Source of the DNA: Bradymonas sediminis
GTDB lineage: Bacteria; Myxococcota_A; Bradymonadia; Bradymonadales; Bradymonadaceae
Length of the DNA stretch: 64,000 nt
Assembly (NCBI RefSeq): GCF_003258315.1
Contig: NZ_CP030032.1
Coordinates: forward strand, 224,001-288,000
Reading direction: 5' to 3'
Shown in pieces: positions 5,212 through 57,890 of the stretch (its first letter is position 1; every line of letters starts with the position of its first letter). The translations under genes and the position numbers were made by a program. The notes under the pieces were generated by a model. The model made no database searches. It had not been told where the DNA came from and worked only from the letters and a program-made list of their open reading frames with translations.

Positions 5212-6159
5212 CTACTCAGATTTTGGCTTCTCGCCATTGGGATTGGGGTGTTCGAATTTCTCCCAGGTGACCGGTTCTTTTTTCATCGCGCGGCTCAGAA
5301 TAATCACGCCCGCGGTGAAGATACCCATGGACACAAATTGCGCCGGAGTCAGGTCGAAATAGCGTTTGTCGCCGCCGTAGGTATAGACCTCGGCCTGGAC
5401 CTGGAGGATGTCCAGGAAGAATTGGACGAAGCCGTTGACGTCGATGGTGCCTTCGGCCGACTGCGGCCAGACGCGCAAGAAGTCCAGGGTGAAGCGAATC
5501 GGCGCGTACATCACGAAGAGCAGGCCCAGGAAGAAGCCCTTGGGGCGCGGCTTGCGGTCCAGGATGACGAAGGTCGCGACGATGACGCCCCACCACATCA
5601 TCTCGTAAAAGCCAAGGTCGTGGCGGATGGTGCCGTCGGGGAAGAGCAGCGCCAGCGGCCAGCCGTCCGGGGCCAGGCCGCCGGGGTGGTCGTGGACCGA
5701 AGCACAGCCCATGCGCCCGAAGAACCAGGCGAAGGGCAGGGCCCACGCGGCGTGGTCGGCCCATTTGAGCAGGTCCATATCGGGGTGCATCTTCTTCCAG
5801 ATAAACACGGCGATGATACCGCCGAGCAGGCCGCCGTAGCTTGAGATCGACCCCCAGACCTGAAAGATAATCCACGGGTTTTCGGCGAGCTGTTCGGGCT
5901 GGTAGAAGACGACGTCGAAGACGTGGGAGAAGCACCAGCCAAAGGCGATCAGGAAGAAGCCAAAGTTCTGGAAGGATTCCCCGCTAAAACCCATCTTCTG
6001 CTCGGCGCGCCGGCTGCCCATCGTCAGCGCCAGGAGCAACCCGATGGCCACCAGCATCCCGAAGGAGTGGATCTGCAGGGGCATATTGAAGCCCGGCACA
6101 TTGTCGATCAAAGTCCACGGCCCAAATTGCCAATAGGGCAGGGCGGCAAGGATGTTCAT
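5212..6159 (-). CDS. lgt: Prolipoprotein diacylglyceryl transferase family membrane protein (divergent Lgt)
   Basis: Lgt attaches diacylglycerol from phosphatidylglycerol to the lipobox Cys of prolipoproteins in the inner membrane. The 315-residue protein has many hydrophobic helices and family landmarks in order: HSFGMLVAIG near the N-terminus, SSYGGLLGG, GRMGCASVHDHPG (Arg149-Cys152) and RFTLDFLR near the C-terminus. The canonical enzyme has HGG where this has YGG, and GRxGN where this has GRMGC, so two usually conserved residues differ. The ATG at 6159 is preferred over an upstream TTG because GGAG sits 6 bases before it. It may be a true Lgt of a divergent clade or a paralogue with another acceptor or substrate. 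Confidence 0.8.
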   Translation of the reverse strand: MNILAALPYWQFGPWTLIDNVPGFNMPLQIHSFGMLVAIGLLLALTMGSRRAEQKMGFSGESFQNFGFFLIAFGWCFSHVFDVVFYQPEQLAENPWIIFQVWGSISSYGGLLGGIIAVFIWKKMHPDMDLLKWADHAAWALPFAWFFGRMGCASVHDHPGGLAPDGWPLALLFPDGTIRHDLGFYEMMWWGVIVATFVILDRKPRPKGFFLGLLFVMYAPIRFTLDFLRVWPQSAEGTIDVNGFVQFFLDILQVQAEVYTYGGDKRYFDLTPAQFVSMGIFTAGVIILSRAMKKEPVTWEKFEHPNPNGEKPKSE

Positions 6160-8587: not shown

Positions 8588-9871
8588 ATGCTTACAGCGA
8601 TCGTTCATCTCTTGATCCTCATTATCTTCGCGAACCGCTATTTCGTCGGCTCGTTCTTGAAGGAGGTGACCGCTAAAAAGATGAATGAGCGCGTTGAGGA
8701 TTGGGAGCCGCAGGTGAGTATTGTGGTGCCGATGTTCAACGAGGGCGAGCGCATCGTCGGGACCATCAATAGCCTGGCGAATCAGGATTATGCGCCCGAT
8801 AAGTTGGAGATCATCGTGGTCGACGACCAGTCGACCGACGACAGCTATCGTTGGGCGACCGAGGCGGCGGCCAAACACCCGAATGTGCGCGTGATTCAGA
8901 ACCCGGTCAATATGGGGAAGCGGCGCGGGATCAACCGCGCGGTGCGCCAGGCGGAGTCCGAGATCATTGTGTCGGTCGACTCCGACGTAGTGGTCGAGGA
9001 TGACGCGGTGCGAAAGCTGGTCGCGTGTTTTGTCGAAGACGATATCGCGGCGGTCGGCGGGCGGGTCAATGTGCTCAATAAGAATGAGAATTGGCTCACG
9101 CGCATGCAGACCATCAAATATTATTTCGGCTACGAATACCTCAAAAATGTCGAGCGCGCCCATCGGCGCGTGATGTGTTTGTCCGGGTGCTTGACCGCCT
9201 ATCGCCGCCACGTGCTCGTCGAGCTCGAGCCGGTGCTCGAGGACCGAAACGTGATGGGCATCCCCATCAAATACGGCGAAGATCGCTTTTTGACCCGCCA
9301 TATTATCAAGGCCGGCTATAAGACGGTGCTCACCCTCGACGCGGTCAGCCACACCATCGCCCCGCCGACCCTCAAGGGGTATTTTAGCCAGCAGATTCGC
9401 TGGCGGCGCTCCAACCTGGTCGATTATATGGGCGGGCTGAGCCATGTGTGGAAATTGCCGCCGCTTGTATCCCTGCATTATTATTCACTTTTTGCGCTTT
9501 TGCTGGTCTATCCGGCGGTTGTGTTCGACTCCCTGGTGCGCGGATCGTTTTGGAATATGGCGATGATCCATCTGGCGATGTTGGCCGGTTTCGGGACCAT
9601 GTATCATATCCAAACCCTGGCGCTGCCCAAGGAAGACAAGGTCCACCCGCTGAACTTTTTGTGGATGGGCATTGTTATGCCGGTGACCTATGTGGCGCTG
9701 ACGCCGCTGGCGATCTTTACCCTGGACTCAGGCTCCTGGGAGACGCGCGGCCATAAGGCCAACCGCAATGATAAATTGCCCGATGATGTGGCGCTTGATG
9801 ACTTGACGCCCGACGAATCGCTGCCCGACGAAGCTCTGCCAGGCGCCGAATTACCCTCGCCGAACCCATGA
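8588..9871 (+). CDS. Processive family 2 glycosyltransferase (hyaluronan/chitin/alginate-synthase type)
   Basis: Inner-membrane polysaccharide synthase, 427 residues. After one N-terminal membrane helix, the GT-A catalytic domain shows PMFNEGE, IVVDDQSTDDS, the metal-binding DSD, the acceptor-side GED (KYGEDRFLT) and the processivity motif QQIRWRRS. Several membrane helices follow and an acidic tail (DDVALDDLTPDESLPDEALP) ends the protein. These motifs define processive beta-glycan synthases that use UDP- or GDP-sugars and push the chain across the membrane. The exact sugar cannot be read from sequence. It is the first gene of a three-gene run with the adaptor at 9902 and the envelope protein at 11098. 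Confidence 0.88.
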   Translation: MLTAIVHLLILIIFANRYFVGSFLKEVTAKKMNERVEDWEPQVSIVVPMFNEGERIVGTINSLANQDYAPDKLEIIVVDDQSTDDSYRWATEAAAKHPNVRVIQNPVNMGKRRGINRAVRQAESEIIVSVDSDVVVEDDAVRKLVACFVEDDIAAVGGRVNVLNKNENWLTRMQTIKYYFGYEYLKNVERAHRRVMCLSGCLTAYRRHVLVELEPVLEDRNVMGIPIKYGEDRFLTRHIIKAGYKTVLTLDAVSHTIAPPTLKGYFSQQIRWRRSNLVDYMGGLSHVWKLPPLVSLHYYSLFALLLVYPAVVFDSLVRGSFWNMAMIHLAMLAGFGTMYHIQTLALPKEDKVHPLNFLWMGIVMPVTYVALTPLAIFTLDSGSWETRGHKANRNDKLPDDVALDDLTPDESLPDEALPGAELPSPNP

Positions 9872-11097: not shown

Positions 11098-12924
11098 ATG
11101 CCTATTTTGTGCCGTCGGGCTCTTTGTATTGGAATCTTCATCGTCGCTGCCGGGGGGCCGAGCGCCGCGTTCGCTCAGTCGCCGGATGACACCTCCGCCG
11201 AGCACCTCGACGCGTATTGCACCTGGCGCGGGGCGCAGGCCGACGCCGAGCAGAGCCTGTTGTGGGCGCCCGACGTGGTCGCCTGGTCCTGGGGGGACGG
11301 GCTCTATGATAGCGGGGAGTTGGTCGATAACGGGGCGCTTCGCGGGCGCATCTTGGCGGGTATCCGCTACGATTTTAGCGACCTATACCGCGGGTTTTTG
11401 CTCGGCGACGAGGCCGAAGCGGCGTGTGCGCGCTATCGGGCGATGTCGCGATTTGAGGCGGCCCTTGAGCGCAGCGGTCATATCGGCCAGCGCGCGGCGC
11501 TCGAAGCCCAGCAAAAGGTGCTCGCCGAGGCGATTCCGCAGGCAAAAGAGGTGATCGAAGGGCTCAAAGCGGCGGTCGCCGGAAAGCGCGCGTCGGACCG
11601 CGAGCTTCGCGCCATGCAAATCCGCCTGGACACCCTTGAGCGCATGGCTCAGAACACCCGCGACACCCTGGTTCAATTGGGCGACGCGCCCGCGAAATCC
11701 CCGGATATTCACGCCTTATTGGACGCCTTCTTGACGGCTGATTCTGCGTATCAGCGCGCCCAGGCGAAGACCCAGCGCGCGGAGTCCTGGGAGCTCAGCC
11801 TGGCCGCGGGTTATTCGCATCGCTTCGGTGACACCACCTCGGCGCCGGTTTTTGCAGGCGGCACATTCTCTTTTAATATCGGCCAGTTATGGGCCGGCGC
11901 TGCGACCGAGCGTGCGATTGACGCGCATGAGGTTTGGCAGGAGAAGCGCCCGGGGGGCCCGAGCGGGAAGTTGCGGGAGTTGGTGCGCGCGCATCAATTT
12001 TCGGCCCGCGCCGACCGCGAGAAATTGCAGGCCAACGCGCTGATGCTGGCGGACCTCGAGGAGCGCCTGGAGCGCCTCGCCCCGCTCAAAGGCCAGGAGG
12101 CGGTTTCTTTTCGGAACCTGGTGTGGTTCGACTACGCACAGTTGCTGGCCGAGACCGCGCCGGTCGCCGAGCGGCTCAAAGAAATGGAGGCGTTTCTGCG
12201 GACGATGGAGGCGCGCGAGGCCGCGCGCGATGAGGATAACCCGCAGGAAGACGCGACGACCTATGTGACGCGTCGCTTCGCGCTCGCCTATAAGCCCACG
12301 CCGCTCAGCGAGATTAAGCGACCCGCGACGCCCCAGGAGGAGCTGAAGAAGTTGACTTCGTATAACCCACGCTCCCTCGACCTTATCCTGGGCAACGTCG
12401 AGCATGAGGTGTCGGGCTCGAATGATTTCGCGATTAAGGTGCCCAAGCTGCGCGTCGAATTGCCGGGCTCCGATGGCCGCCTGGGCCTGGTTCGCTTCAC
12501 CTATGATGGCCCCAGTGAGGAGACCGTGGACTTCGCCTCGGGCCGCTCGCGCGCCCAGATTGGGCTGAAGCTGCGCGCCCAGGATAGCTGCAACGTCCTC
12601 TATGTGATGTGGCGAATCGACCCGGACCAGCGCATCATGGTGTCGAGCAAGTCGAACCCGGGCCAACACCTAAATCGCGAGTGTGGCAACGCCGGCTACG
12701 CGAACCTGCGCCCGACTTCGGTGACCCATCCGCCGCTGGTCAAGCCCGGCGCGACCCACACGCTCGGCGCCTATCTCAAGGACGACGTGTTGCAGGTCTT
12801 CGTCGACGATAAGCTGGTGTGGAAGGGCGATGTGGGCACGCTCTCCTACGACGGCGTGACGGGACTGCGCAGCGATAACGGTGTCTTTAGCGACGTCACG
12901 ATCTTCAGCAAGCCGCGAGAATAG
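11098..12924 (+). CDS. Secreted envelope protein: helical/beta N-terminal part plus jelly-roll C-terminal domain
   Basis: About 608 residues from the ATG at 11098; an upstream in-frame TTG at 11077 would lengthen an already good signal peptide (ALCIGIFIVAAGGPSAAFAQ). Residues 30-430 are rich in long helices with a beta-like stretch (WELSLAAGYSHRFGDTTSAPVFAGGTFSFNIGQLWAG) resembling barrel strands of TolC-type outer-membrane proteins. The last 200 residues look like a concanavalin-type jelly roll (IGLKLRAQDSCNVLYVMW; LRSDNGVFSDVTIF at the end), a fold often used to bind sugars. With the synthase and the adaptor it completes a plausible inner membrane-periplasm-outer membrane polymer export path. 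Outer-membrane location is inference. Confidence 0.65.
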   Translation: MPILCRRALCIGIFIVAAGGPSAAFAQSPDDTSAEHLDAYCTWRGAQADAEQSLLWAPDVVAWSWGDGLYDSGELVDNGALRGRILAGIRYDFSDLYRGFLLGDEAEAACARYRAMSRFEAALERSGHIGQRAALEAQQKVLAEAIPQAKEVIEGLKAAVAGKRASDRELRAMQIRLDTLERMAQNTRDTLVQLGDAPAKSPDIHALLDAFLTADSAYQRAQAKTQRAESWELSLAAGYSHRFGDTTSAPVFAGGTFSFNIGQLWAGAATERAIDAHEVWQEKRPGGPSGKLRELVRAHQFSARADREKLQANALMLADLEERLERLAPLKGQEAVSFRNLVWFDYAQLLAETAPVAERLKEMEAFLRTMEAREAARDEDNPQEDATTYVTRRFALAYKPTPLSEIKRPATPQEELKKLTSYNPRSLDLILGNVEHEVSGSNDFAIKVPKLRVELPGSDGRLGLVRFTYDGPSEETVDFASGRSRAQIGLKLRAQDSCNVLYVMWRIDPDQRIMVSSKSNPGQHLNRECGNAGYANLRPTSVTHPPLVKPGATHTLGAYLKDDVLQVFVDDKLVWKGDVGTLSYDGVTGLRSDNGVFSDVTIFSKPRE

Positions 12925-46646: not shown

Positions 46647-49600
46647 TTAGTTCATCCAACGACGGCGGCGCGCCAGGGCGAGTCCGCCGAGGGCCATCGC
46701 ACCGAACAGCATGCCGGGCGTCAGCGGTTGCCCTTCGGCACCGCTGCTGCAGGAGCAGCCCGAGCCGGCGAGGTCGCCGCCAAGCTCGTTCACGTCTCCG
46801 GCGTCCACGCCTGCATCATCACCGGCGTCCACGCCCGCGTCGCTTTCAGCGTCGGGGCCGGCGTCCGGTCCGGCGTCGGTCTCCGGGCCCACGTCTTCGC
46901 TGACCTCAGCCGGCGTCACGCGCACGTTGTGCGTGGCGGGGTTGCTATTTACGCGGCCGTCGTTAACCACCAACAAGAAGGTGTAGGTGGTCGGCGAGGT
47001 GACGTCGGTCGGGAAGGTCAGCTCGTAGTCCTGTGCGCTGGCGTCCCCAAGATCGGGGGCCGGCTCGCCGGAGACCAGGCTCCAGGTGTAGAGCAAGTTG
47101 TCGCCTTCGGGGTCGGAGCTGTCCGCCGCGCTCAAGGTGATCATCTCACCGGCCTCGGCGGTCGTCGGGCCGGTGATAACGGCCGACGGCTTGGTGTTCG
47201 GGCGCGCCGTGACGAGGACACTGGTGTCACTCGGGGCGCTGTCCACGGTGCCGTCGTTTACGACGAGTTGGAATTCCAGCACGTCCTGGTCGTTGGCCGA
47301 GTTCGGCACGTCGAACTCCGGCGTCGCCGAAGTCGCGTCGACGAAGGTCACCGGCTCGCCGCTGGTTTGAGTCCACGCATAGGTGAGCGTGTCTCCGTCG
47401 GGGTCGCTACTGGCGGTGCCGTCGAGCGTCACGGTGCTGCCCATGGTCGCGATCTGGTCGGCGCCAGCGTCGGCGGTCGGCGCGCGGTTAGCCGTGCTGC
47501 ACAGGTTGGTGTCGCTGTCGCACCAGGCGCCGGCGGCGCACTGGTTATCCCGGGTGCAACTGGTGCGGCACGTGCCAGCGTCACATTTGAAGGGCGCGCA
47601 ATCGACGGTGGTCGGCACCAGGCACACGCCGCTTCCGTCGTTGCTGGGGTCACCGTCGCAGAAGCCCGCGGCCACGGCCTCGGTCTCCGACACACACGCC
47701 GCCGGCTCACACTGAGTGGTCGTCGGCAGACCTTCGGTCTTGCACACGCCGTCGGTCGGGTCACAAACGCCAATCGTACACGCCTGCGCCGGGTCAAGGG
47801 CGCAATCTTTGACGGTTCCGACACACGCGCCAGCGACGCAGACGTCGTTCTCGGTGCAGAGGTTGCCGTCGTCGCAGGATTTCGCCAGGGCGTCGTCGAC
47901 GTTCATCCAACCGTCGATGCTACCGCCGGAGGTGTCGCACACCTGGCAGCTATTATTGGGGTTGACGTCGCCGTCCTGGTGGAACTCGCCGTCGGCAAAG
48001 CAGGTGGGTCCGCCGAGGTAGAAGAAGACCTGGCCTGCATCAGTGAGCGTTCCACCGCTGCCGTCGTCGACGTCGGCAAGATAGGCGCCAACGAGGAAGT
48101 CATCGTAGCCATCACCATTGACGTCGCCGGCGCCGCTGACGCTGCGACCGAATCCTGAACCAGCCTGGGTGCCTTTGCCGGTCCAACTCGGCGTCTGAAG
48201 CAGTCCTGCTGCGGTGCCGGGGAAGAGGTATGCCGCGCCTTGTTCGTTGAGGTTGTCGGTATGCTTGAAGGCGCCGACGAGAAGATCGGCGTAGCCGTCT
48301 GCGTTGAGGTCGCCCGCAGAGCTAACGAAGGAGCCGAAGCGCTCGTTAGCCGTAAAACCATTAATAATAGCGCTATCACCGGGGAAGCCTGCGGCATCGC
48401 CGTAAAATACGTACACGCGGCCGACGTCGTTTTGGGTGGGCGAGTCGAAGAGGTTTGCGCCGAAGACGAGATCGTCGACGCCGTCGCCGTTGAAGTCGTC
48501 GATGGTTAGGGATAGGCCGTGGAAGCTGCTGGCTTGGCTTCCTTCGAATTTCCAATCTTCCGTGGTGGAGGGGCCAGCGGTATCGCCAAGATATACTTTT
48601 ATTTGACCAGAGTTGTTTGCGAATTGACTGTTCCAATAAGGAGCAGACACAGCAATATCATCACACAGGTTGGCGTCGCCATTTAAGTTCCCAACAGCCA
48701 AGTCGAAAGCAAAATAGATTACGCCAACAGGGGCGTCAACGCTCCAATCGGAGGCAGCCGAAAAGCTAGTCCCATCACCATAATAAGCGACGATACTTCC
48801 ACGGCCGCTGTTTCTACCCCGAGCGCCAACAACAAGGTCGGTTAGTCCATCACAGTTTACGTCTCCGCTTGCGAGAGACGCGCCAAGTTGGTCACTAAGA
48901 TTGCCTTGTACTGTATAAACTGGCACAGGATTTAGCGCAGGGTCTACAATAGCCGTCGTATCCTGGCCGCCAAATACAAATACTTTTCCCGTCAGCCCAT
49001 TTGAAAAAGGCGCACTCACTGCTACGTCAGCAAAGTTGTCTCCATTAATGTCACCTAAAGACTCAATCGATGTTCCCATTTCGCCATTAATTAGATCAGA
49101 CTCAATAGCGATTGAAGCAGTTGATGAGAGTCCTGTGGCAGACCCGAGAAAGATTATAATACGCCCTTCTTTAGTCTCGCCATTCGCAAACTTTGGCTCT
49201 CCGATCACAACATCATCGAAACCATCATTATTGAGGTCGCCGGCTTGGTTGACGATATAACCAAATTGGCTGTTAGGGTTTTCACCATCCACTATTGTTT
49301 CAGGGCTATTCAGAAGTGGGTCAATATCAAGCGGATACACGGCATCGCTATCATCGATGGCGTATCCAAATTGATCGTCTTCAACGAAAAAGTCTGCCGG
49401 CAGTCGACGAGATTCGGCGTCGTAGACGACAAGATCACGTAATTGAAAGCGTGTCTTGCCATCCTTGTCGATTTGAATGGTATTTGTTGACACATCCAGC
49501 GAGTGCATAAATCCCTCCGGAGCGTTGTATTTGAGAATTAGCAGGCCTTTGCCTTCGGGGGACTTCCTTACTTTATATGCTTGCTTGATGCCCTGAGGGC

Positions 49601-50111
49601 GGCGCTCGTAAATCGCCGTAAAATTCGCCTCCGCGTAATTATATCGAACGCTCGTGGAGTCGAATTGGACCTCAGGCGTTTTTAAGTCGCGGACGTTGCC
49701 CTCGCGGCCAAATAGCGGGTTGCCAAGTGTATAGGGTGAGACCTCGGGTTTGGCGACACCGTCGACGCCAAAAGAAGGGATGGATGAGAGGGCGAGCGTA
49801 CCGTCGGCCAAAAATTCGATATTGGCGTTAAGCGCCAGCGACGTCGCTCTCGCCGAGGCGTGGGTGATGTCGAATTTGTCCATGAACCCCGCCTGGGCTG
49901 GGGCGGGACTGGACTCTTTGGGCGTGGGCACTACTTGCTCTTTTAAATCTTTCGATTCAACAAGTGCGGCCGAAGCGGATTGAATCTCCGCGGTCGACGA
50001 ATCGTCACTACCACACGCGGCGCTGGACGCGATAATGGATGCCGCTAGGGCCAATAGTGATAATCCACGCTGTGCGCGACCATTTTTTCTGGCAATGCAA
50101 TGCATAAACAT
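46647..50111 (-). CDS. Giant surface protein: FG-GAP repeats, Cys-rich region, PKD-like domains, MYXO-CTERM tail
   Basis: 1154 residues; GAGGGAG precedes the ATG at 50111. A signal ends at a lipobox-like SAAC (Cys33). After a beta-rich 200-residue part come seven FG-GAP/integrin-alpha-type repeats with calcium loops such as GDLNNDGFDDVVIGEP and GDVNGDGYDDFLVGA. Then a Cys-rich segment, two K319/PKD-type Ig domains (APTADAGADQIATMG..., TYAWTQTSG), an acidic Asp/Ala spacer (DAGPDAGPDAESDAGVDAG), and a C-terminal GSGCSCSSGAEG plus hydrophobic helix and RRRRWMN. That tail is of the MYXO-CTERM type. Function is probably adhesion. It is divergent from the lasso cyclase, 53 bp away. Confidence 0.9.
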   Translation of the reverse strand: MFMHCIARKNGRAQRGLSLLALAASIIASSAACGSDDSSTAEIQSASAALVESKDLKEQVVPTPKESSPAPAQAGFMDKFDITHASARATSLALNANIEFLADGTLALSSIPSFGVDGVAKPEVSPYTLGNPLFGREGNVRDLKTPEVQFDSTSVRYNYAEANFTAIYERRPQGIKQAYKVRKSPEGKGLLILKYNAPEGFMHSLDVSTNTIQIDKDGKTRFQLRDLVVYDAESRRLPADFFVEDDQFGYAIDDSDAVYPLDIDPLLNSPETIVDGENPNSQFGYIVNQAGDLNNDGFDDVVIGEPKFANGETKEGRIIIFLGSATGLSSTASIAIESDLINGEMGTSIESLGDINGDNFADVAVSAPFSNGLTGKVFVFGGQDTTAIVDPALNPVPVYTVQGNLSDQLGASLASGDVNCDGLTDLVVGARGRNSGRGSIVAYYGDGTSFSAASDWSVDAPVGVIYFAFDLAVGNLNGDANLCDDIAVSAPYWNSQFANNSGQIKVYLGDTAGPSTTEDWKFEGSQASSFHGLSLTIDDFNGDGVDDLVFGANLFDSPTQNDVGRVYVFYGDAAGFPGDSAIINGFTANERFGSFVSSAGDLNADGYADLLVGAFKHTDNLNEQGAAYLFPGTAAGLLQTPSWTGKGTQAGSGFGRSVSGAGDVNGDGYDDFLVGAYLADVDDGSGGTLTDAGQVFFYLGGPTCFADGEFHQDGDVNPNNSCQVCDTSGGSIDGWMNVDDALAKSCDDGNLCTENDVCVAGACVGTVKDCALDPAQACTIGVCDPTDGVCKTEGLPTTTQCEPAACVSETEAVAAGFCDGDPSNDGSGVCLVPTTVDCAPFKCDAGTCRTSCTRDNQCAAGAWCDSDTNLCSTANRAPTADAGADQIATMGSTVTLDGTASSDPDGDTLTYAWTQTSGEPVTFVDATSATPEFDVPNSANDQDVLEFQLVVNDGTVDSAPSDTSVLVTARPNTKPSAVITGPTTAEAGEMITLSAADSSDPEGDNLLYTWSLVSGEPAPDLGDASAQDYELTFPTDVTSPTTYTFLLVVNDGRVNSNPATHNVRVTPAEVSEDVGPETDAGPDAGPDAESDAGVDAGDDAGVDAGDVNELGGDLAGSGCSCSSGAEGQPLTPGMLFGAMALGGLALARRRRWMN

Positions 50112-50164
50112 AACTCCCTCGCTGACTTAACAGCATTTATTTTGGTCAATATTCTGAGTGTAAG

Positions 50165-52144
50165 ATGGGTCAATCAGGATCGCATCTTTTTCTGAATTAT
50201 GGCACAAGAGCAAGGTGGAATGAAATTTTTCCCGCAATACCCCTCACTCAAAGCGAGTCTGCCGTGGATATAGGTGTCATATTTCGAGAGCAAGTGCAAA
50301 GAGAGAGGCCATTAGACGCCGTCGCGGCAATCTCAGCCTCCGATGAGTGGTCCGTACACCATATTCAATCGGGTGGGGTAAGCTTCGATTTAATTCTGGC
50401 GCGGAGCACGCCGGCAGGTCTTAGTTGTGGCTGGACAAAGGTCCATGGCGGATGGACCGCGTGGGTCGCCGAGCGGACCACGTTGCTGGAACTACGCCGG
50501 GCGCTATCCGCAACACCTTCGATGGATGACGCAGATATTATGCGTGCAGCCATTGAGTGCTGGGGGTTTGGGGCCATTAAACATACGGATAGTGTTTGGG
50601 CTGGTATGATTTGGCGGGAGCACGAACAAGAACTTTGTTTTTTTCGAGATCGCATCGGCATGGTGCCGACTTTTTATTCGCGCGAATCGTCTCAGAATTC
50701 CGAATTCGGTGTGTTTTCGACATCGGTGGCATTAATTCAGCACTTATATCCAAAATCGCGTGACATTAATCTGAACAGGCTTCGAAAATTTCTACTAAAC
50801 AAGTCAGATTGTCGACGTGACGATTTTTTTGAAGAAATCTCCCGGCTTCATCCAGGCGAGTCCTGGCACTGGCGACCTTATAAACAACCACCTCGAATAG
50901 AACGATATTGGCATTTTAATAATGAATCTCAGCGTTTTGATGATAGAGAGCAACTTGCTGATGTTCTATTGAGCAGACTTAAAAATATTGTTGGCGATTA
51001 TTTTGAAGCCAAGTATTTTCCCCTTACTCTTGTCAGCGGCGGCGTTGACTCTACGCTTCTTCTTTCATTGCAGATTGAGCAACAGCAAAGGCTCGGCTTA
51101 GGCGATAATCGGGTAGATGCGGCGACCATGGGCTTCCCCTCGTTTCCGACCGTCGACGAGAGTTATTGGGTCAATCACCTCCAAGAACACATCGGCCATT
51201 CTGTTGCGACGGTAAATGTTGAAGATAAATGGCCAATGCGTGACCCCGAAGTTTTTACGAGATATCCCGAGTTAGGCCCAAGTTTTCATCCGGGTGAGGA
51301 TTACGAAACAACTTTCATACATCGAGCGCTCAAAGAAGACTCCTCCAGATCCGTATTCTGGGGGGTTGGCGCCGATCAACTTTTTGTAGTTAATGAGAAC
51401 CGCATTCTGAAGTCATTATTGAATTCATCGGATGTGAGTTTCGATGTGCGTCTTACAAAAGCTCATCGTCGGTTCGGGACCAAACGAATCGCAAGTCATC
51501 TGCTCGGGAGAACGTCCGCTGCAAAGCCACTCCGGATTCTACGAGATAAATCCGATTCCTTTTTCGGACGACAAGCTAATCCTTGGCACAACCCAGAACG
51601 TTGGGTGTCTTTTGAGGCTACGGGAACTGTCAATCCGTCAAATTCAAATATTAGAGATGTAAAGCCTGAGCAATCATTTTTATCACGTCATCTATGGGAG
51701 TTGGTAATTCGAGGGTTTCGCCGGAAATCATTGTATTTGGGCAGGTCACATCATCTACCATATCTCCGGGCGGATTTCGTGAAGGTTGTTCTGGGGAGAA
51801 AGCCACATTCGCTGCATAAAAGTGCCACGCTTCAGAAATCTCTACTGCGTGACATCGCGCGAAATTATGTGCCTGAGTCTATTCGCCTGCGACCCAAAGG
51901 AGGCGTCTTTTCAAAGTTTGTCGAATCAGGCGTAGGCGGTCGCGAGTATACGCGGATCGAGGCATTGTTCTCGGGGGAGTCAGCCCTTGCAGATAACCAA
52001 TTAATAGAGCCGAAAGTTTTTTTGGACACATTTGCGGCGTATCGGAGTTTCTGTTGGTCTCATCAGGGGAAGCGCCAGACTGCTGCAGAAATGATTCTTT
52101 GGAGAACGATTGCAGGAGAGTTATGGTGCCGTCGAGTCAGTTGA
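50165..52144 (+). CDS. Lasso-peptide cyclase (asparagine-synthetase-like macrolactam synthetase)
   Basis: Closes the macrolactam ring by activating an Asp/Glu side chain as AMP ester and attacking with the new N-terminus of the core. 659 residues. The N-terminal half is a degenerate glutaminase domain with no N-terminal catalytic Cys (Met-Gly start), as expected of cyclases rather than true AsnB. The synthetase half has the ATP pyrophosphatase loop SGGVDST (residues 291-297), a GFPSFPTVDESYWVNHLQE segment, WGVGADQLFV (AsnB GEGADELF) and a helical C-terminus. It is A+T-richer than flanking genes. The gene precedes the precursor by 66 bp, so the two likely share a message. Confidence 0.88.
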   Translation: MGQSGSHLFLNYGTRARWNEIFPAIPLTQSESAVDIGVIFREQVQRERPLDAVAAISASDEWSVHHIQSGGVSFDLILARSTPAGLSCGWTKVHGGWTAWVAERTTLLELRRALSATPSMDDADIMRAAIECWGFGAIKHTDSVWAGMIWREHEQELCFFRDRIGMVPTFYSRESSQNSEFGVFSTSVALIQHLYPKSRDINLNRLRKFLLNKSDCRRDDFFEEISRLHPGESWHWRPYKQPPRIERYWHFNNESQRFDDREQLADVLLSRLKNIVGDYFEAKYFPLTLVSGGVDSTLLLSLQIEQQQRLGLGDNRVDAATMGFPSFPTVDESYWVNHLQEHIGHSVATVNVEDKWPMRDPEVFTRYPELGPSFHPGEDYETTFIHRALKEDSSRSVFWGVGADQLFVVNENRILKSLLNSSDVSFDVRLTKAHRRFGTKRIASHLLGRTSAAKPLRILRDKSDSFFGRQANPWHNPERWVSFEATGTVNPSNSNIRDVKPEQSFLSRHLWELVIRGFRRKSLYLGRSHHLPYLRADFVKVVLGRKPHSLHKSATLQKSLLRDIARNYVPESIRLRPKGGVFSKFVESGVGGREYTRIEALFSGESALADNQLIEPKVFLDTFAAYRSFCWSHQGKRQTAAEMILWRTIAGELWCRRVS

Positions 52145-52210
52145 CAAAGTTGGAGCGGAACTTCACAGTGCGTGAAGTTGGAATGATCAGCCCGTAATTT
52201 GGAGATGGAA

Positions 52211-52366
52211 ATGAAAAAAGCTAAAAACAAAATCAGTCGAAAGCTAATTTATAAAAAACCTCAACTAACTTATCATAGTACACTTGCAGCAATTATTCGT
52301 GGCACCAGCGGTAACGAAGTCGACGGCAGCACTCCTGCGGACCGTGGGAATAATCCGGGTGATTAA
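52211..52366 (+). CDS. Lasso-peptide precursor (51 residues)
   Basis: Too short for ordinary gene calling. GGAG stands 6 bases before the ATG; an in-frame ATG two codons up (52205) is too close to it. The N-terminus is basic (MKKAKNKISRK). The leader carries YKKPQL at residues 14-19, the YxxPxL motif read by PqqD-like recognition proteins. Counting as in known leaders of this type, where the core starts 17 residues after the Tyr, the core begins at Gly31, and Asp38 is core position 8: ring GTSGNEVD, tail GSTPADRGNNPGD. The residue at leader -2 is Ile29, where Thr is usual. The core ends in Asp and lacks bulky aromatic residues. Ring assignment is inference. Confidence 0.82.
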   Translation: MKKAKNKISRKLIYKKPQLTYHSTLAAIIRGTSGNEVDGSTPADRGNNPGD

Positions 52367-52381
52367 CCGGGCTACGCTTTC

Positions 52382-54085
52382 GTGAAACATTCAGAACTAA
52401 CCGCCTCAACCGCCCTGCCAAAACACACCCCATTCCTCCCCTCAGCGATCTTCCAATCGCTGTCGATCCTGGCCCAGCTCACCACCCCCTTCCTCTTCAA
52501 GCTGATCATTGACGAGGCCATCGGGGGCGGTGAGCTGGACCTGTTGTGGCTATACGCCGGCCTCAGCGCCGCCGCCTTCGCCCTGGCGTCCTTCTTCCGT
52601 TTCGCCGCGCGTTGGTCCGCCGAAAAACTCGCCGCCGACTTCTGGCTAAAACTCCGCAGCCGTACCTTCGAGCACCTCGTCAATCTCCCCATGGCGCGCC
52701 ACGGCGCGCAGCAGGCTGGCGACCTGATCGCCCGGGTGCAATACGACACCTATTCCCTGCGCAACTTATATACAGGTGTATTTCCCGCCATCGTCGAGCT
52801 GCTCGTCGGCAGCGCGGTGACCATGGTCGCCTTGCTCTATCTTGAGCCCATGATGACCCTGGTCGCGCTCGGGGCCTTCCCGATCATCTTTCTGATCGCC
52901 TGGGTCTTCCGCGACAAGATCGGTCCGCTGACCAAGCGCGTGGCGACCTACCAGGGGAAGGTCTACGCCGGCGTGACCGAAGGTCTCAACGGTCTTGAGT
53001 CGCTCAAGACCTACGACGATCGCGGCAAATTCGCGGCGCAATTGCAAAAGGACGGCGAGGGCCTGCGCGACGCGCAGCTTGAGCTTGCGCGCTTCCAGGC
53101 GATGCTCTTTCCCCTGCTTAACTTCGCGATCGCGCTCATATTGCTCGGCGTCCTGGTGGCTGGCGGGCAGATGGTGATAGAGGGGGCGCTCTCGGTCGGG
53201 ACATTGGTCGCCTATTATTATTATGTGTCTCGCAGCCTCGGCCCGATCCGCGGGGCGACCGGGATCTTCTTTGGCTGGCACCGCGCGCAGGCCGCGCGCG
53301 CCCGGCTCGATGAACTCTTCGCGGTGAAGGATTCACTGCCGCACCCCGACCCGCCCGAGCCCATTCCCGACTCGACCCCGGATGCGCCCGCGACCTTTGC
53401 TTTTGAGCATGTGTCGTTTGAATATGAGGCCGGTAATCCGGTGCTTCGCGATGTGTCGTTCGAACTCGCGCCCGGCGCGCGCGTCGCCCTCCTGGGGGCT
53501 TCTGGCAACGGAAAGAGCACGCTCGGCAAGTTAGTCGCGCGCCTCTATGACCCGCTCGAGGGGCAGATCACTTACGCCGGGCGCCCGCTGACGCAATTCG
53601 AAGAAGCGACCTGGCGCACCATGATCGGCTATGTCGGCCAGGAGGTCTTCTTATTCCATGGGAGCATTGCCGATAATATCCGCTTCGGCGCTTTGAGGGA
53701 GGTGAGCGATGCCGAGGTTGAGCGGGTCGCGCGCATCGCGCGGGTCGACGCGATTGCCGACGGCAAGACCGACGGCCTCGACGCCCAGGTCGGCGAGAAG
53801 GGCGTGAAGTTGTCGGGCGGCCAGCGAAAGCGCATCGGCCTTGCCCGCGCGCTCATCCGTAACCCGCGCATCATCCTCGTCGACCAACTCGCCGCCGACC
53901 TCGAGGCCGATCTTTGCCGGGCGATCTTCGACGATCTGCGCCGTGAATTCCCGCATGTTGCGATCCTCCACGTCGGCCACCGGGTCCCCGCGGGCTTTGA
54001 GGCCGACGCCGTCTACTGGATCGAGCGCGGCATACTGGCGCCGTTTTCTGACGTCGAGCGGGTCGCCGAGACCCAATTTGCCTAA
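52382..54085 (+). CDS. ABC exporter of the lasso cluster, with Gln at the Walker B catalytic site
   Basis: 567-residue half-transporter: membrane domain (about 20-300, six hydrophobic helices) and ATPase domain. Walker A GASGNGKST (372-380), Q-loop GYVGQEVFL, signature LSGGQRKRIGLARAL and the H-loop LHVGHR are present. At Walker B the usual DE is DQ (Asp501-Gln502: IILVDQLAADLE), and the following SALD loop is altered (AADLE). That pair would be expected to slow or stop ATP hydrolysis in a homodimer, by comparison with engineered Glu-to-Gln ABC proteins. No other ABC gene is adjacent. The start is a GTG 15 bp after the precursor stop. Presumably exports and confers immunity to the lasso peptide. 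Confidence 0.85.
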   Translation: MKHSELTASTALPKHTPFLPSAIFQSLSILAQLTTPFLFKLIIDEAIGGGELDLLWLYAGLSAAAFALASFFRFAARWSAEKLAADFWLKLRSRTFEHLVNLPMARHGAQQAGDLIARVQYDTYSLRNLYTGVFPAIVELLVGSAVTMVALLYLEPMMTLVALGAFPIIFLIAWVFRDKIGPLTKRVATYQGKVYAGVTEGLNGLESLKTYDDRGKFAAQLQKDGEGLRDAQLELARFQAMLFPLLNFAIALILLGVLVAGGQMVIEGALSVGTLVAYYYYVSRSLGPIRGATGIFFGWHRAQAARARLDELFAVKDSLPHPDPPEPIPDSTPDAPATFAFEHVSFEYEAGNPVLRDVSFELAPGARVALLGASGNGKSTLGKLVARLYDPLEGQITYAGRPLTQFEEATWRTMIGYVGQEVFLFHGSIADNIRFGALREVSDAEVERVARIARVDAIADGKTDGLDAQVGEKGVKLSGGQRKRIGLARALIRNPRIILVDQLAADLEADLCRAIFDDLRREFPHVAILHVGHRVPAGFEADAVYWIERGILAPFSDVERVAETQFA

Positions 54086-54284
54086 TCCATGGGCGTCGGG
54101 TTTGAACTGCGCCGAAGCGTGTCTACCCTAAGTGGAATCGCAGGCATCGGTCGCGCGTTGTATATCCGTGTGATCGTGGCGATATTATTAGACATAGAAA
54201 TATGCGATGAATCTCGGCGAGTGGATCGTCGAGCGGCGCTGAGCCCGCGCGCGTATTCATGGTACTGAAATGAGGGAGACTCCG

Positions 54285-54578
54285 ATGACGGAAAATCTAT
54301 TTCCACGCGACGCTGTGTTTTCGATCCGCGAGGATCTTGTGGTCGAGCAGGTCGATGACGAATTTTTGGTGTTGGATCTGCGTGGGAACGAGTATTTCGG
54401 TCTGAACGCGGTGGCGCGCCATATCTGGGCGGCGATCGACGCCGGGGATTCCCTGGCTGCGATTGCCGACTCGGTGTGTGAGCGCTTCGAGGTCGAGCGC
54501 GAGCGCGCCGCGACCGATGTGGCTGACTTTATCGCGAATTTACTCGAGCAACGACTCGTCAGTCGCGTCGATGCCTGA
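54285..54578 (+). CDS. PqqD-like recognition protein (lasso B1, RRE)
   Basis: 97 residues from the ATG at 54285, which has GGGAG 6 bases upstream; an earlier in-frame ATG at 54270 lacks a site. The fold is the PqqD/RiPP-recognition-element winged helix: VVEQVDDEFLVLDLRGNEYFGLNAVARHIWAAIDAG, then helices to EQRLVSRV. In lasso systems this stand-alone module grips the YxxP motif of the leader and delivers it to the protease. The 199-bp gap upstream from the exporter suggests a separate promoter could exist here. Confidence 0.88.
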   Translation: MTENLFPRDAVFSIREDLVVEQVDDEFLVLDLRGNEYFGLNAVARHIWAAIDAGDSLAAIADSVCERFEVERERAATDVADFIANLLEQRLVSRVDA

Positions 54579-54595
54579 GCGCATGCAGTAGTTTT

Positions 54596-55618
54596 ATGGA
54601 AAATACAGATCGATTGGTGCGCTATCGCGCGTTTGGGCGCGATATCGACGGCCCGGCAGGGCTCTCCTTGAGTCCGGCGCCGGCTGAGGCTGCGCCCGGC
54701 GAGGTCCCGGTGCTGCGTCTGCAGCCCGATGCTTCGTTGCGCGTGTTTATCGACGAAAATCTCCCGCCGCTCCTTCACAATGTCGAGGATTATCCAGGCG
54801 GCCCCAAGTTTTATGTTTGGCAGGAGGGCGAGGCGGTAGGCGTTCAATACGACCGCTGGCGCACGCGTTTGATCCCCGGCGAGGGACGCATCGACTTTGC
54901 GGAGCTTCCTCCCAGCGGCCCCAAGCGTGTCGAGGATGCCGGAGATGAATACGGGCGTTTTCGCTTCTCCCTGGCGATGGAGAGAGTCTTCCTGCCGCTA
55001 TACGCGCTCTTTTCGATGCCCGACGCGGTCGCCCTGCATGGCAGTGCGGTCGTGCTCAATGGCGAGGCGTTCTTATTCATTGGGCGATCGGGCGCCGGAA
55101 AATCCACGACCGCTTACGAATTTGTGCGTCGCGGGGCGACGCTATTGGCCGACGACTTGATCGTCGCCGATGTCGCCCGCGGCATCGCCCTCGGCGGCGC
55201 CCCGACGCTTCGCCTGTGGAAGGGGGAGGGCGCTCTCCCCGAGGCGCAGGAGGACCGAAGTCTATGGCGGCACGACGCGTCGAAGCGCTGGTTTCGCATC
55301 CCGGCGGAGCGAGGCGCCGCGAGCGCGGTGCCGATCGCGGCGATCGTCATGCTCGATCCTGACACCCTTGGTGGCCAGCGGGATGTGCTCCCTGGGCTTG
55401 AAACGTCACCCCAGCGCAAGGCGCTGACCGATCTTCTGGGGCAGACCTTCGACCTATCCCACGGGACTCCTGAGTGGATGGTCGCTCGTTTTCGAAACAC
55501 CGCGCGTTTGATTCGCGAATATCCTTTCTATCACTTTCGCTATGTGAAATCGGCTGATGGAAAGCCAACGCATATGGATGCTCTCTATCAGGCGATCGTT
55601 GGCCTCGCCTCAAAATGA
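54596..55618 (+). CDS. HPr-kinase-like kinase of the lasso cluster
   Basis: 340 residues. The C-terminal two thirds match the HPr kinase fold: ALHGSAVVLNGEAFLFIGRSGAGKSTTAYEFVRRGATLLADDLIVADV, containing the P-loop GRSGAGKST. It starts 17 bp after the PqqD-like gene and likely belongs to the same message. In paeninodin-type lasso clusters such kinases phosphorylate the C-terminal Ser of the precursor. Here the precursor ends in Asp, so the target would be another Ser/Thr (core positions 2, 3, 10 or 11) or not the peptide; this is inference. Confidence 0.8.
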   Translation: MENTDRLVRYRAFGRDIDGPAGLSLSPAPAEAAPGEVPVLRLQPDASLRVFIDENLPPLLHNVEDYPGGPKFYVWQEGEAVGVQYDRWRTRLIPGEGRIDFAELPPSGPKRVEDAGDEYGRFRFSLAMERVFLPLYALFSMPDAVALHGSAVVLNGEAFLFIGRSGAGKSTTAYEFVRRGATLLADDLIVADVARGIALGGAPTLRLWKGEGALPEAQEDRSLWRHDASKRWFRIPAERGAASAVPIAAIVMLDPDTLGGQRDVLPGLETSPQRKALTDLLGQTFDLSHGTPEWMVARFRNTARLIREYPFYHFRYVKSADGKPTHMDALYQAIVGLASK

Positions 55619-55666
55619 TCGAATGCACCGAGGCGCGATTTGCCAGCGATTTAGCACGGAGATTTG

Positions 55667-56107
55667 ATGAAGCCGATTCACCCAATAGCGCAAGCCGAGA
55701 TGCTCGTGGAGGTCGCGATCGCACGCGTGCTCAGTGAGTTTCTCAGCATCGAGGACCTTCTACGGTTAGTCGGCGAGGCTGCGAGGATCGCGCAGCAGTG
55801 GCCAGCGCGATCGTGCGTGGCGTCGCCCTCGGCGGAGGCCATCAACGAAACTGCTGCCTTGAGCGAACTGCTCGCCCACCGCGCCTCTCGCCTCGTGCCG
55901 GGCGCGCAATGTCTGCAGCGCGCACTCGCCGGCCGCGTGTGGCTCGCTCGCCGCGGGATCGCCTCAGAGATCGTGGTCGGTTTTAGAAAGCGCGGCGTGC
56001 TCGAAGGGCACGCGTGGTTGGAAGTGATGAGCCCGGATGGATTAATCGAACTATTTAACAATGCGGACGATGGGTATCGTGAGTCGTTCCGCGAGGTAGC
56101 CGCTTGA
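55667..56107 (+). CDS. Lasso-peptide leader protease (B2, transglutaminase-like)
   Basis: 146 residues from the ATG at 55667 (GGAG 6 bases upstream). The transglutaminase-like fold carries a cysteine-protease set: Cys82 in PGAQCLQRALAGRVWL, His115 in EGHAWLEV, and an acid, perhaps Asp124 (SPDG). This is the small PF13471-type B2 layout, half the size of the fused McjB. It should cut between Arg30 and Gly31 of the precursor if the core assignment is right. Its stop overlaps the next gene's TTG start (TTGA), so translation is coupled. Confidence 0.87.
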   Translation: MKPIHPIAQAEMLVEVAIARVLSEFLSIEDLLRLVGEAARIAQQWPARSCVASPSAEAINETAALSELLAHRASRLVPGAQCLQRALAGRVWLARRGIASEIVVGFRKRGVLEGHAWLEVMSPDGLIELFNNADDGYRESFREVAA

Positions 56108-57282
56108 ACGCACCCTGCAACGAAAAATTGGCGTCGACGCGCCTATTTCCCGAAGACTGCCCGACGACCTCGCTGGTGCTCGAGCGAATCGTCGAGGGGA
56201 GCGCGCTCTGCGCCGGTGATATTGCCCATGAGCGCCTATTAACCGATGCCGATGCCGCGGGATTTTTGCCGGTGCTCTACCGCTATCTTCTGTCGACCGG
56301 ACGCGATGTTCCCGGCCGGTTTCGCCAGAGTTGGCTCGTGCATATCGCACGCCTTGCCCTCTATCGGGCGGAGCTTCGCCGCGTGCTGCCAATCATCGAG
56401 GCGTTCAGTCCCGTTGTTCTGCTCAAAGGGGAGGGGCTCTCCTTGCTGCTCTTTGGGGACGCTCGGCTGCGCAACACGACGGATATGGATCTTCTGATCG
56501 ATCCGCGTCAGCTAGGGCCGATCGTCGAGGCCCTCGGTGAGATTGGGTACCACACCCTCGGCGACGGCAAGACGAAGCCCTGGGCATATAACCAGCTTCT
56601 GTTGGTGCATGAGGATTGCGGGACCCTGATTGAGTTGCATTGGCGCATCGCCTTCCCTCACCTCAAGAGTCCGCCGATCGGCGACTTGTTGGAAGATACG
56701 ATCGCGGTTGAGTTGGACGGCGGAGCGCTCCCGGCGCGATCGCTTCGGCCCGAACTACTCTTGCTGCAACTTTGTTTTCATTTTCATCAGCACCACGGCT
56801 TCTATAAGGGGCTGCTCGATATCGCGGGTTGGATCGATCGCTTCGAATCAACCGCCGACCTCGACGAAGTACGCGCTCTCACGCGGCGCTACGAGATCGA
56901 CGGCGTACTCCAATGGGGGTTGCATGCGTTGGAGCGATTCACGGGCGTGCGATCGCGCCTGTATGATCCTCACGCGAATCTATTCGCGAAATCGTGGGCG
57001 GCCTGGTCCGCCCTCGAGATGGAGCGACGCTATATCTTTATGGCGTCGCCCAACGCGATCGACCGCTGGTGGCGCGATCCGCGAGTGACGACACAGATCG
57101 CCGGTGTTCTGGCGGACGCGCTGAGCATGACGGTGGCGGACGGCGCGCTCAACCGCCTGCGCGCCGTGCTGAGCCCTGTTTTGCTCGGTCCCCACCGGGT
57201 TGGGCGCGTAAATTTTGCGATATTAGAGGGAATTGGGGCCTTTGGAAGGGAGGAGCTCTACGAGCGTCGAATCCTCGGATAA
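56104..57282 (+). CDS. Nucleotidyltransferase-fold protein of the lasso cluster
   Basis: 392 residues starting at TTG inside the preceding stop. The nucleotidyltransferase signature is clear: LLKGEGLSLLLFGDARLRNTTDMDLLID with Asp127/Asp129 as metal ligands, matching the uncharacterised PF14907-like family that accompanies lasso and other RiPP clusters. A helical C-terminal half follows. In the pseudomycoidin cluster a similar gene has been linked, as I recall, to further modification of the phosphorylated peptide. Function here is unknown. Confidence 0.78.
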   Translation: MNAPCNEKLASTRLFPEDCPTTSLVLERIVEGSALCAGDIAHERLLTDADAAGFLPVLYRYLLSTGRDVPGRFRQSWLVHIARLALYRAELRRVLPIIEAFSPVVLLKGEGLSLLLFGDARLRNTTDMDLLIDPRQLGPIVEALGEIGYHTLGDGKTKPWAYNQLLLVHEDCGTLIELHWRIAFPHLKSPPIGDLLEDTIAVELDGGALPARSLRPELLLLQLCFHFHQHHGFYKGLLDIAGWIDRFESTADLDEVRALTRRYEIDGVLQWGLHALERFTGVRSRLYDPHANLFAKSWAAWSALEMERRYIFMASPNAIDRWWRDPRVTTQIAGVLADALSMTVADGALNRLRAVLSPVLLGPHRVGRVNFAILEGIGAFGREELYERRILG

Positions 57283-57518: not shown

Positions 57519-57890
57519 ATGCCAACGATTAACCAGCTCGTCCGCAAAGGACGTCTACAAGTCAAGAAAAAGACCGACGCTCCGGCCCTTAAAGGATGCC
57601 CGCAGAAGCGTGGGGTGTGCACTCGCGTGTACACGACCACCCCTAAAAAGCCGAACTCCGCTCTTCGTAAGGTCGCGCGTGTGCGTTTGACCAACGGGAT
57701 CGAAGTCACCAGCTATATTCCGGGTGAGGGTCATAACCTCCAGGAGCATAGCGTGGTGCTTATTCGCGGCGGTCGAGTCAAAGACCTCCCGGGTGTTCGT
57801 TACCATATCGTGCGTGGCACGCTCGACGCCATCGGCGTCCAAGAGCGTCGTCAGGCCCGTAGTAAATATGGCACCAAGCGCCCTCGCTAA
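57519..57890 (+). CDS. rpsL: 30S ribosomal protein S12
   Basis: 123 residues from the ATG at 57519 ([11 protein letters not shown]); the longer frame from 57495 is not S12-like. Signature segments include [58 protein letters not shown]. The usual site of streptomycin-resistance change, [10 protein letters not shown], reads with Lys as in sensitive ribosomes. First gene of the str operon, followed by rpsG after 78 bp. Confidence 0.97.

Follow-up and report, generated by a model that had tools for sequence, protein, structure and literature searches.

The bsf lasso-peptide cluster of Bradymonas sediminis: a conserved chromosomal slot and an apparent exchange cassette

Results

Identity of the cluster

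The seven plus-strand ORFs at positions 50165-57282 of the window, i.e., of the whole stretch of 64,000 nucleotides analyzed from the single-contig genome of Bradymonas sediminis (5,045,683 bases), form a genuine cluster for a knotted (lasso) peptide; this cluster was already named bsf in B. sediminis FA350 and partly characterized in 2023 (Duan et al., 2023; PMC10368454). It is almost certain that the locus is best explained as this published cluster, with the maturation route and the slot and cassette evolution proposed below. According to the ORF list of the window, all reading frames are intact (Table 1). As described in an earlier note on this DNA, the genes lie on one strand. Profile matches assign them to the families named there, and relatives carry the same cluster. 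The same note had called the cluster previously unnamed, which is wrong because it is the published bsf: PMC10368454 prints codon-optimized bsfA, bsfB1, bsfB2, and bsfK, and comparison of the translations revealed 100% identity to the window proteins over 53, 102, 146, and 340 aa, respectively, at the positions given in Table 1. The sequences compared showed no difference between FA350 and the window, and the flanks (FG-GAP protein, ribosomal proteins) are alike. Additionally, lasso clusters had been listed for almost all Bradymonabacteria in a study from 2020. With the cluster itself already described, finding it again is of little consequence; what stays of interest are the cassette and the exporter. 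The literature searched contained no report of the fixed slot, of an exchangeable cassette or of the exporter Gln, and the accessible part of the text of PMC10368454 holds no discussion of a cassette or a Walker B Gln.

Table 1. Features of the bsf locus and its surroundings (positions of the window).
Feature	Position	Strand	Description	Basis
FG-GAP/PKD surface protein	46647..50111	-	1154 aa, divergent, adjoining bsfC	
Proposed exchange cassette	48280..52366	.	low-GC tract: FG-GAP N-terminal half + C + A	composition, identity steps
bsfC	50165..52144	+	AsnB-like lasso cyclase (659 aa), SGGVDST ATP-pyrophosphatase loop, without N-terminal catalytic Cys, GC3 44%	profile, alignment, tree
bsfA	52205..52366	+	precursor (53 aa), YKKPQL leader, Ile(-2)-Arg(-1), GC3 32%	identical to published BsfA; motif control
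Core peptide	52301..52363	+	GTSGNEVDGSTPADRGNNPGD (21 aa), predicted Gly1-Asp8 macrolactam, Ser3 phosphorylated by BsfK	sequence; PMC10368454
bsfD	52382..54085	+	ABC exporter (GTG start, 567 aa)	ORF, profile matches PF00664/PF00005
Asp-Gln (DQ) of BsfD Walker B motif	53882..53887	+		motif alignment
bsfB1	54270..54578	+	PqqD-like RRE (102 aa)	profile matches; published identity
bsfK	54596..55618	+	HPr-kinase-like kinase (340 aa): His148, GRSGAGKST, Asp186-Asp187	profile matches; published identity
bsfB2	55667..56107	+	Cys/His leader peptidase (146 aa)	profile matches; published identity
bsfN	56104..57282	+	NTP_transf_5 nucleotidyltransferase (392 aa)	profile match
rpsL	57519..57890	+	start of rpsL-rpsG-fusA block marking the fixed slot	

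Cyclase and precursor

BsfC matches PF00733 (3.6e-19) and has the features of an AsnB-like cyclase, namely an SGGxDS motif and no glutaminase Cys. Its score against the NCBIfam lasso-cyclase model NF033535 (60.7 bits) is far under the cut-off of 525, its identity to most relatives is only approximately 25-30%, and a comparison with solved structures yielded no sequence match. Patterns back-translated from BsfC found no related locus, the cyclase being too divergent for this approach; relatives were therefore gathered by whole-genome searches. The precursor-paired cyclases among these relatives lack the N-terminal MCG of AsnB. Since the cyclase tree is long-branched and gives no placement among lasso cyclases, no specific donor is claimed for bsfC.

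The precursor BsfA carries the YxxPxL leader motif as YKKPQL at -17 to -12, and its core combines Gly1 with Asp8, in agreement with the pattern of Gly/Ala1 and Asp/Glu at positions 7-9. Thr at leader position -2 is usual in lasso precursors, though not essential; BsfA has Ile at this position and the relatives Ile or Val. The earlier note had given the precursor 51 residues, a length that is obtained from the inner ATG at 52211, whereas the published form has 53 aa and starts at the ATG at 52205. A strict pattern (Tyr or Ile at -17, Pro at -14, Leu at -12, Ile/Val at -2, Gly1, and Asp/Glu8) was matched by 12 of 38 small ORFs lying immediately 3′ to a cyclase, compared to three out of 2253 other small ORFs, and these three look like lasso precursors themselves, located in loci without a cyclase directly upstream. 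All recovered cores of relatives contain Gly1 and Asp8, except for a near-identical pair (L061/L062) with Glu8, while their tails vary. This conservation supports the Gly1-Asp8 ring anticipated in the earlier note and shows that relatives of the small ORF do adjoin orthologous cyclases, the lack of which the note had named as a possible refutation. Ser3 is present throughout the set of PMC10368454, with Thr in one case; exceptions in the wider set are L060 (Pro3), L059 (Gly3), L066 (Tyr3), and L075 (Gly3). In L060 (positions 8592-9536 and 11627-11800), a kinase with Glu in place of Asp187 accompanies a core that has no Ser3 but a C-terminal Ser.

Processing enzymes and exporter

B1 was identified as a PqqD-type RRE by PF05402 (63.3 bits, cut-off 23.4), K by Hpr_kinase_C (2.2e-9), B2 as a leader peptidase by NF033537 (55.8 bits, cut-off 33) and PF13471 (1.3e-14), and N by PF14907 (1.3e-28). 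The B2-type domain is the only one in the whole genome, and the published start of BsfB2 is the ATG at 55667. According to the published experiments, BsfK phosphorylates Ser3 of the BsfA core, BsfB1 speeds this reaction and is needed by B2, and B2 removes the leader by cleavage behind Ile(-2)-Arg(-1), which leaves the 21-residue core; the authors proposed Gly1-Asp8 as the ring and ascribed no known role to BsfN (PMC10368454).

The roles of these genes are those of a kinase-type lasso pathway, as claimed in the earlier note, yet bsf is not a textbook kinase cluster because its core ends in Asp (...NPGD) and, in the published experiments, was phosphorylated on Ser3 rather than on a C-terminal Ser as in PadeK/PsmK-type systems. 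Paeninodin (pade) and ThcoK/SyanK share with BsfK an HPr-kinase-like enzyme with a His-Lys-Asp-Asp motif that acts on the precursor, but these kinases target a C-terminal Ser and kinase identity is below 21% (PMC10368454). The pseudomycoidin (psm) cluster likewise combines a kinase with a nucleotidyltransferase; in contrast to the Asp-ended, Ser3-phosphorylated BsfA, PsmK targets the C-terminal Ser, where PsmN leads to the addition of a hexose. The other named Bradymonadales clusters pcy, mmv, llb, lss, and lvt share the YxxPxL leader, Ile(-2), Gly1/Asp8, and B1-K-B2 with bsf, whereas some of them lack D or N and their cores differ (PMC10368454).

BsfD is a type I ABC exporter with intact Walker A (GASGNGKST), signature (LSGGQ), and H-loop (GHR) motifs that lacks the catalytic Glu. 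Canonically, Walker B contains Asp-Glu and the Walker B/D-loop reads DEATSALD; BsfD and eight relatives have DQ[LM]A[AT]DL[EQ] instead. Gln thus replaces the catalytic Glu in nine of nine exporters checked (window, L060, L068-L072, L074, and L087) and, being common to all of them, is a conserved trait rather than a sign of decay. Among 284 genomes of the phylum, this exporter type was found only in the family of the window at E <= 1e-100. A DNA pattern of the motif occurred on six contigs in 84,980 species, of which one belongs to Lujinxingia, four are MAGs labeled Myxococcales, and one stems from an uncultured proteobacterium. A literature search with narrow terms yielded no natural Glu-to-Gln exporter. 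No TonB receptor was recognized among the large ORFs of the window, as had been noted before; five are encoded elsewhere in the genome.

Chromosomal slot and proposed exchange cassette

In the order, 21 of 26 genomes contain a B2-family match and 21 of 26 a cyclase-type match. The complete order C-A-D-B1-K-B2-N is found again in L071 and C-A-D-B1-K-B2 in L060 and L068-L070, while other relatives lack D or N. Hence the gene order, which the earlier note considered unusual, does differ from textbook clusters but recurs within the family and is normal there. Ten loci (L059, L060, L063, L064, and L067-L072) lie directly before rpsL-rpsG-fusA, and most of them have an FG-GAP protein at their other end; in L074, rpsL is divergent. 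Across the family, the lasso cluster occupies a single chromosomal slot that lies between the FG-GAP surface protein and rpsL-rpsG-fusA. No repeats of note were found at the locus, and matches to promoter and terminator patterns exceeded the level of shuffled sequence only slightly.

A second conserved slot, beside smc and a uridine-kinase-like gene, holds a C-A pair in L065, L073, L076, and L078. D, B1, K, and B2 are absent from its vicinity, and the cores are mostly much alike (GASWKG.DS.GEL...). These smc-side pairs, together with G014 and G015, may represent split pathways. A split pathway with C-A away from B1-K-B2 had also been considered for genome G008, but its two loci (L066 and L064) each break inside an FG-GAP gene at a contig end; more likely they form, across two contigs, one inverted FG-GAP-C-A cassette at the rpsL slot.

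The FG-GAP/PKD protein has a lipobox-like N-terminus, a MYXO-CTERM-like tail (GSGCSCSS...RRRR), a variable N-terminal half, and a conserved C-terminal half. In the window, its GC3 is 36-44% in codons 200-500 compared to 80-88% in the C-terminal part; in comparison to the low values of C and A (Table 1), GC3 rises to 80% in D, 70% in K, and 71% in N, and the low-GC tract stops at the A/D junction. Compared to L071, the FG-GAP protein reaches 54-68% identity in its C-terminal half and 22-46% in the N-terminal one; the values for C, D, and N are 26%, 48%, and 52%, respectively. Two Lujinxingia species share 90-99% DNA identity in the cassette and 78-93% in its flanks, whereas a third has 54-67% in the cassette and 76-90% on either side. 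Between the Lujinxingia loci L068 and L069, D (90%), B1 (92%), and the FG-GAP C-terminus (77-89%) are similar, as opposed to C (45%), A (46%), and the FG-GAP N-terminus (48-67%). For L068 and L070, C and A are 99% identical and the FG-GAP N-terminus 92-95%, compared to 90% for D and 79% for K. Their DNA identity jumps from 80 to 98% inside the FG-GAP gene (L068 ~5400-5460, window ~48280) and declines again near the beginning of D (9600-9720); along this stretch, the comparison of L068 with L069 shows the reverse.

Judged from these sequence comparisons, namely three Lujinxingia species and the composition of the window, the FG-GAP N-terminal half, C, and A appear to be an exchangeable allelic block that is swapped between species, with sharp edges, the left one mapped from Lujinxingia and the right one at the A/D junction. 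The identity pattern observed is what would be expected if such a block of ~4 kb had been exchanged through recombination within conserved flanking sequence.

Discussion

Maturation would start with phosphorylation of Ser3 by BsfK, assisted by BsfB1, followed by release of the core by B1 and B2, both of which are published steps. With ATP, BsfC would then activate Asp8 and close the Gly1-Asp8 ring, with the tail inside it. BsfN may modify the phosphate by attaching a further group, by analogy with PsmN in pseudomycoidin, and BsfD would export the finished product. The locus would stay in one slot with a constant processing set of D, B1, K, B2, and sometimes N, while the exchangeable cassette (FG-GAP N-terminal half, C, and A) would set the core peptide. 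Joint travel of C and A would be expected of a cyclase that has to suit its own core, whereas B1, B2, and K recognize the leader and the first part of the ring.

That the ring closes and is threaded is a prediction, since neither the native strain nor any of five heterologous hosts (E. coli, Schlegelella, Burkholderia) yielded a detectable mature lasso peptide (PMC10368454). Alternatively, the product could be a phosphorylated peptide of another shape, linear or an unthreaded ring, considering that only the linear phosphorylated core was seen (PMC10368454) and that, apart from Arg, no evident bulky plug residue occurs in the tail GSTPADRGNNPGD. We regard this as improbable, because every precursor found retains Gly1 and Asp/Glu8 despite variable tails, as a ring requires. 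A decayed pathway, in which BsfC or BsfD no longer works, would account for a cluster that is silent in the native host and without product in the five others (PMC10368454), and might be seen in the Gln of BsfD and the high divergence of BsfC. It is nevertheless improbable: the frames are open throughout, in vitro activity has been shown for K, B1, and B2 (PMC10368454), BsfC retains SGGVDST, and the exporter Gln is common to all nine family members checked. That the cyclase is an ordinary asparagine synthetase next to a chance ORF has a negligible probability. Its best NCBIfam score is indeed to asn_synth_AEB (88.7 bits), yet this is under the cut-off of 267, and BsfC has no N-terminal catalytic Cys. 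The earlier note had named grouping with AsnB as a possible refutation; however, eight MCG-type AsnBs form their own clade with support 100 that does not include bsfC. Moreover, the precursor is conserved beside orthologous cyclases, and BsfA is cut and phosphorylated by the products of neighboring genes (PMC10368454).

The best new lead is the hypothesis that the FG-GAP protein, set aside as presumably uninvolved by the authors of PMC10368454, is the partner of the peptide. On balance, it is somewhat probable that the FG-GAP half is merely carried along, without any role with the peptide, and that the breakpoints lie where homology resumes. Breakpoints need conserved flanks, which the FG-GAP C-terminal half and D supply, and the smc-side C-A pairs have no FG-GAP neighbor. 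On the other hand, the FG-GAP gene and C point away from each other at most loci on the rpsL side, and this gene goes with C-A elsewhere (L075) or in inverted form (L066 with L064). It seems rather unlikely, and is put forward as a conjecture, that lasso peptide and FG-GAP N-terminal half are a matched pair (e.g., a peptide with its receptor or immunity protein), exchanged together with the cyclase between Bradymonadales species as one cassette.

Two questions are added to the published work by these observations. One is how a peptide exporter uses ATP with a conserved Gln in place of the catalytic Glu. The other is whether a lasso locus diversifies by swapping cyclase, precursor, and half of a surface protein while its leader-processing enzymes stay constant, which could hint at the role of these peptides in predatory bacteria. 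If FG-GAP protein and peptide are indeed a matched pair, this would point to strain-specific recognition in these predators.
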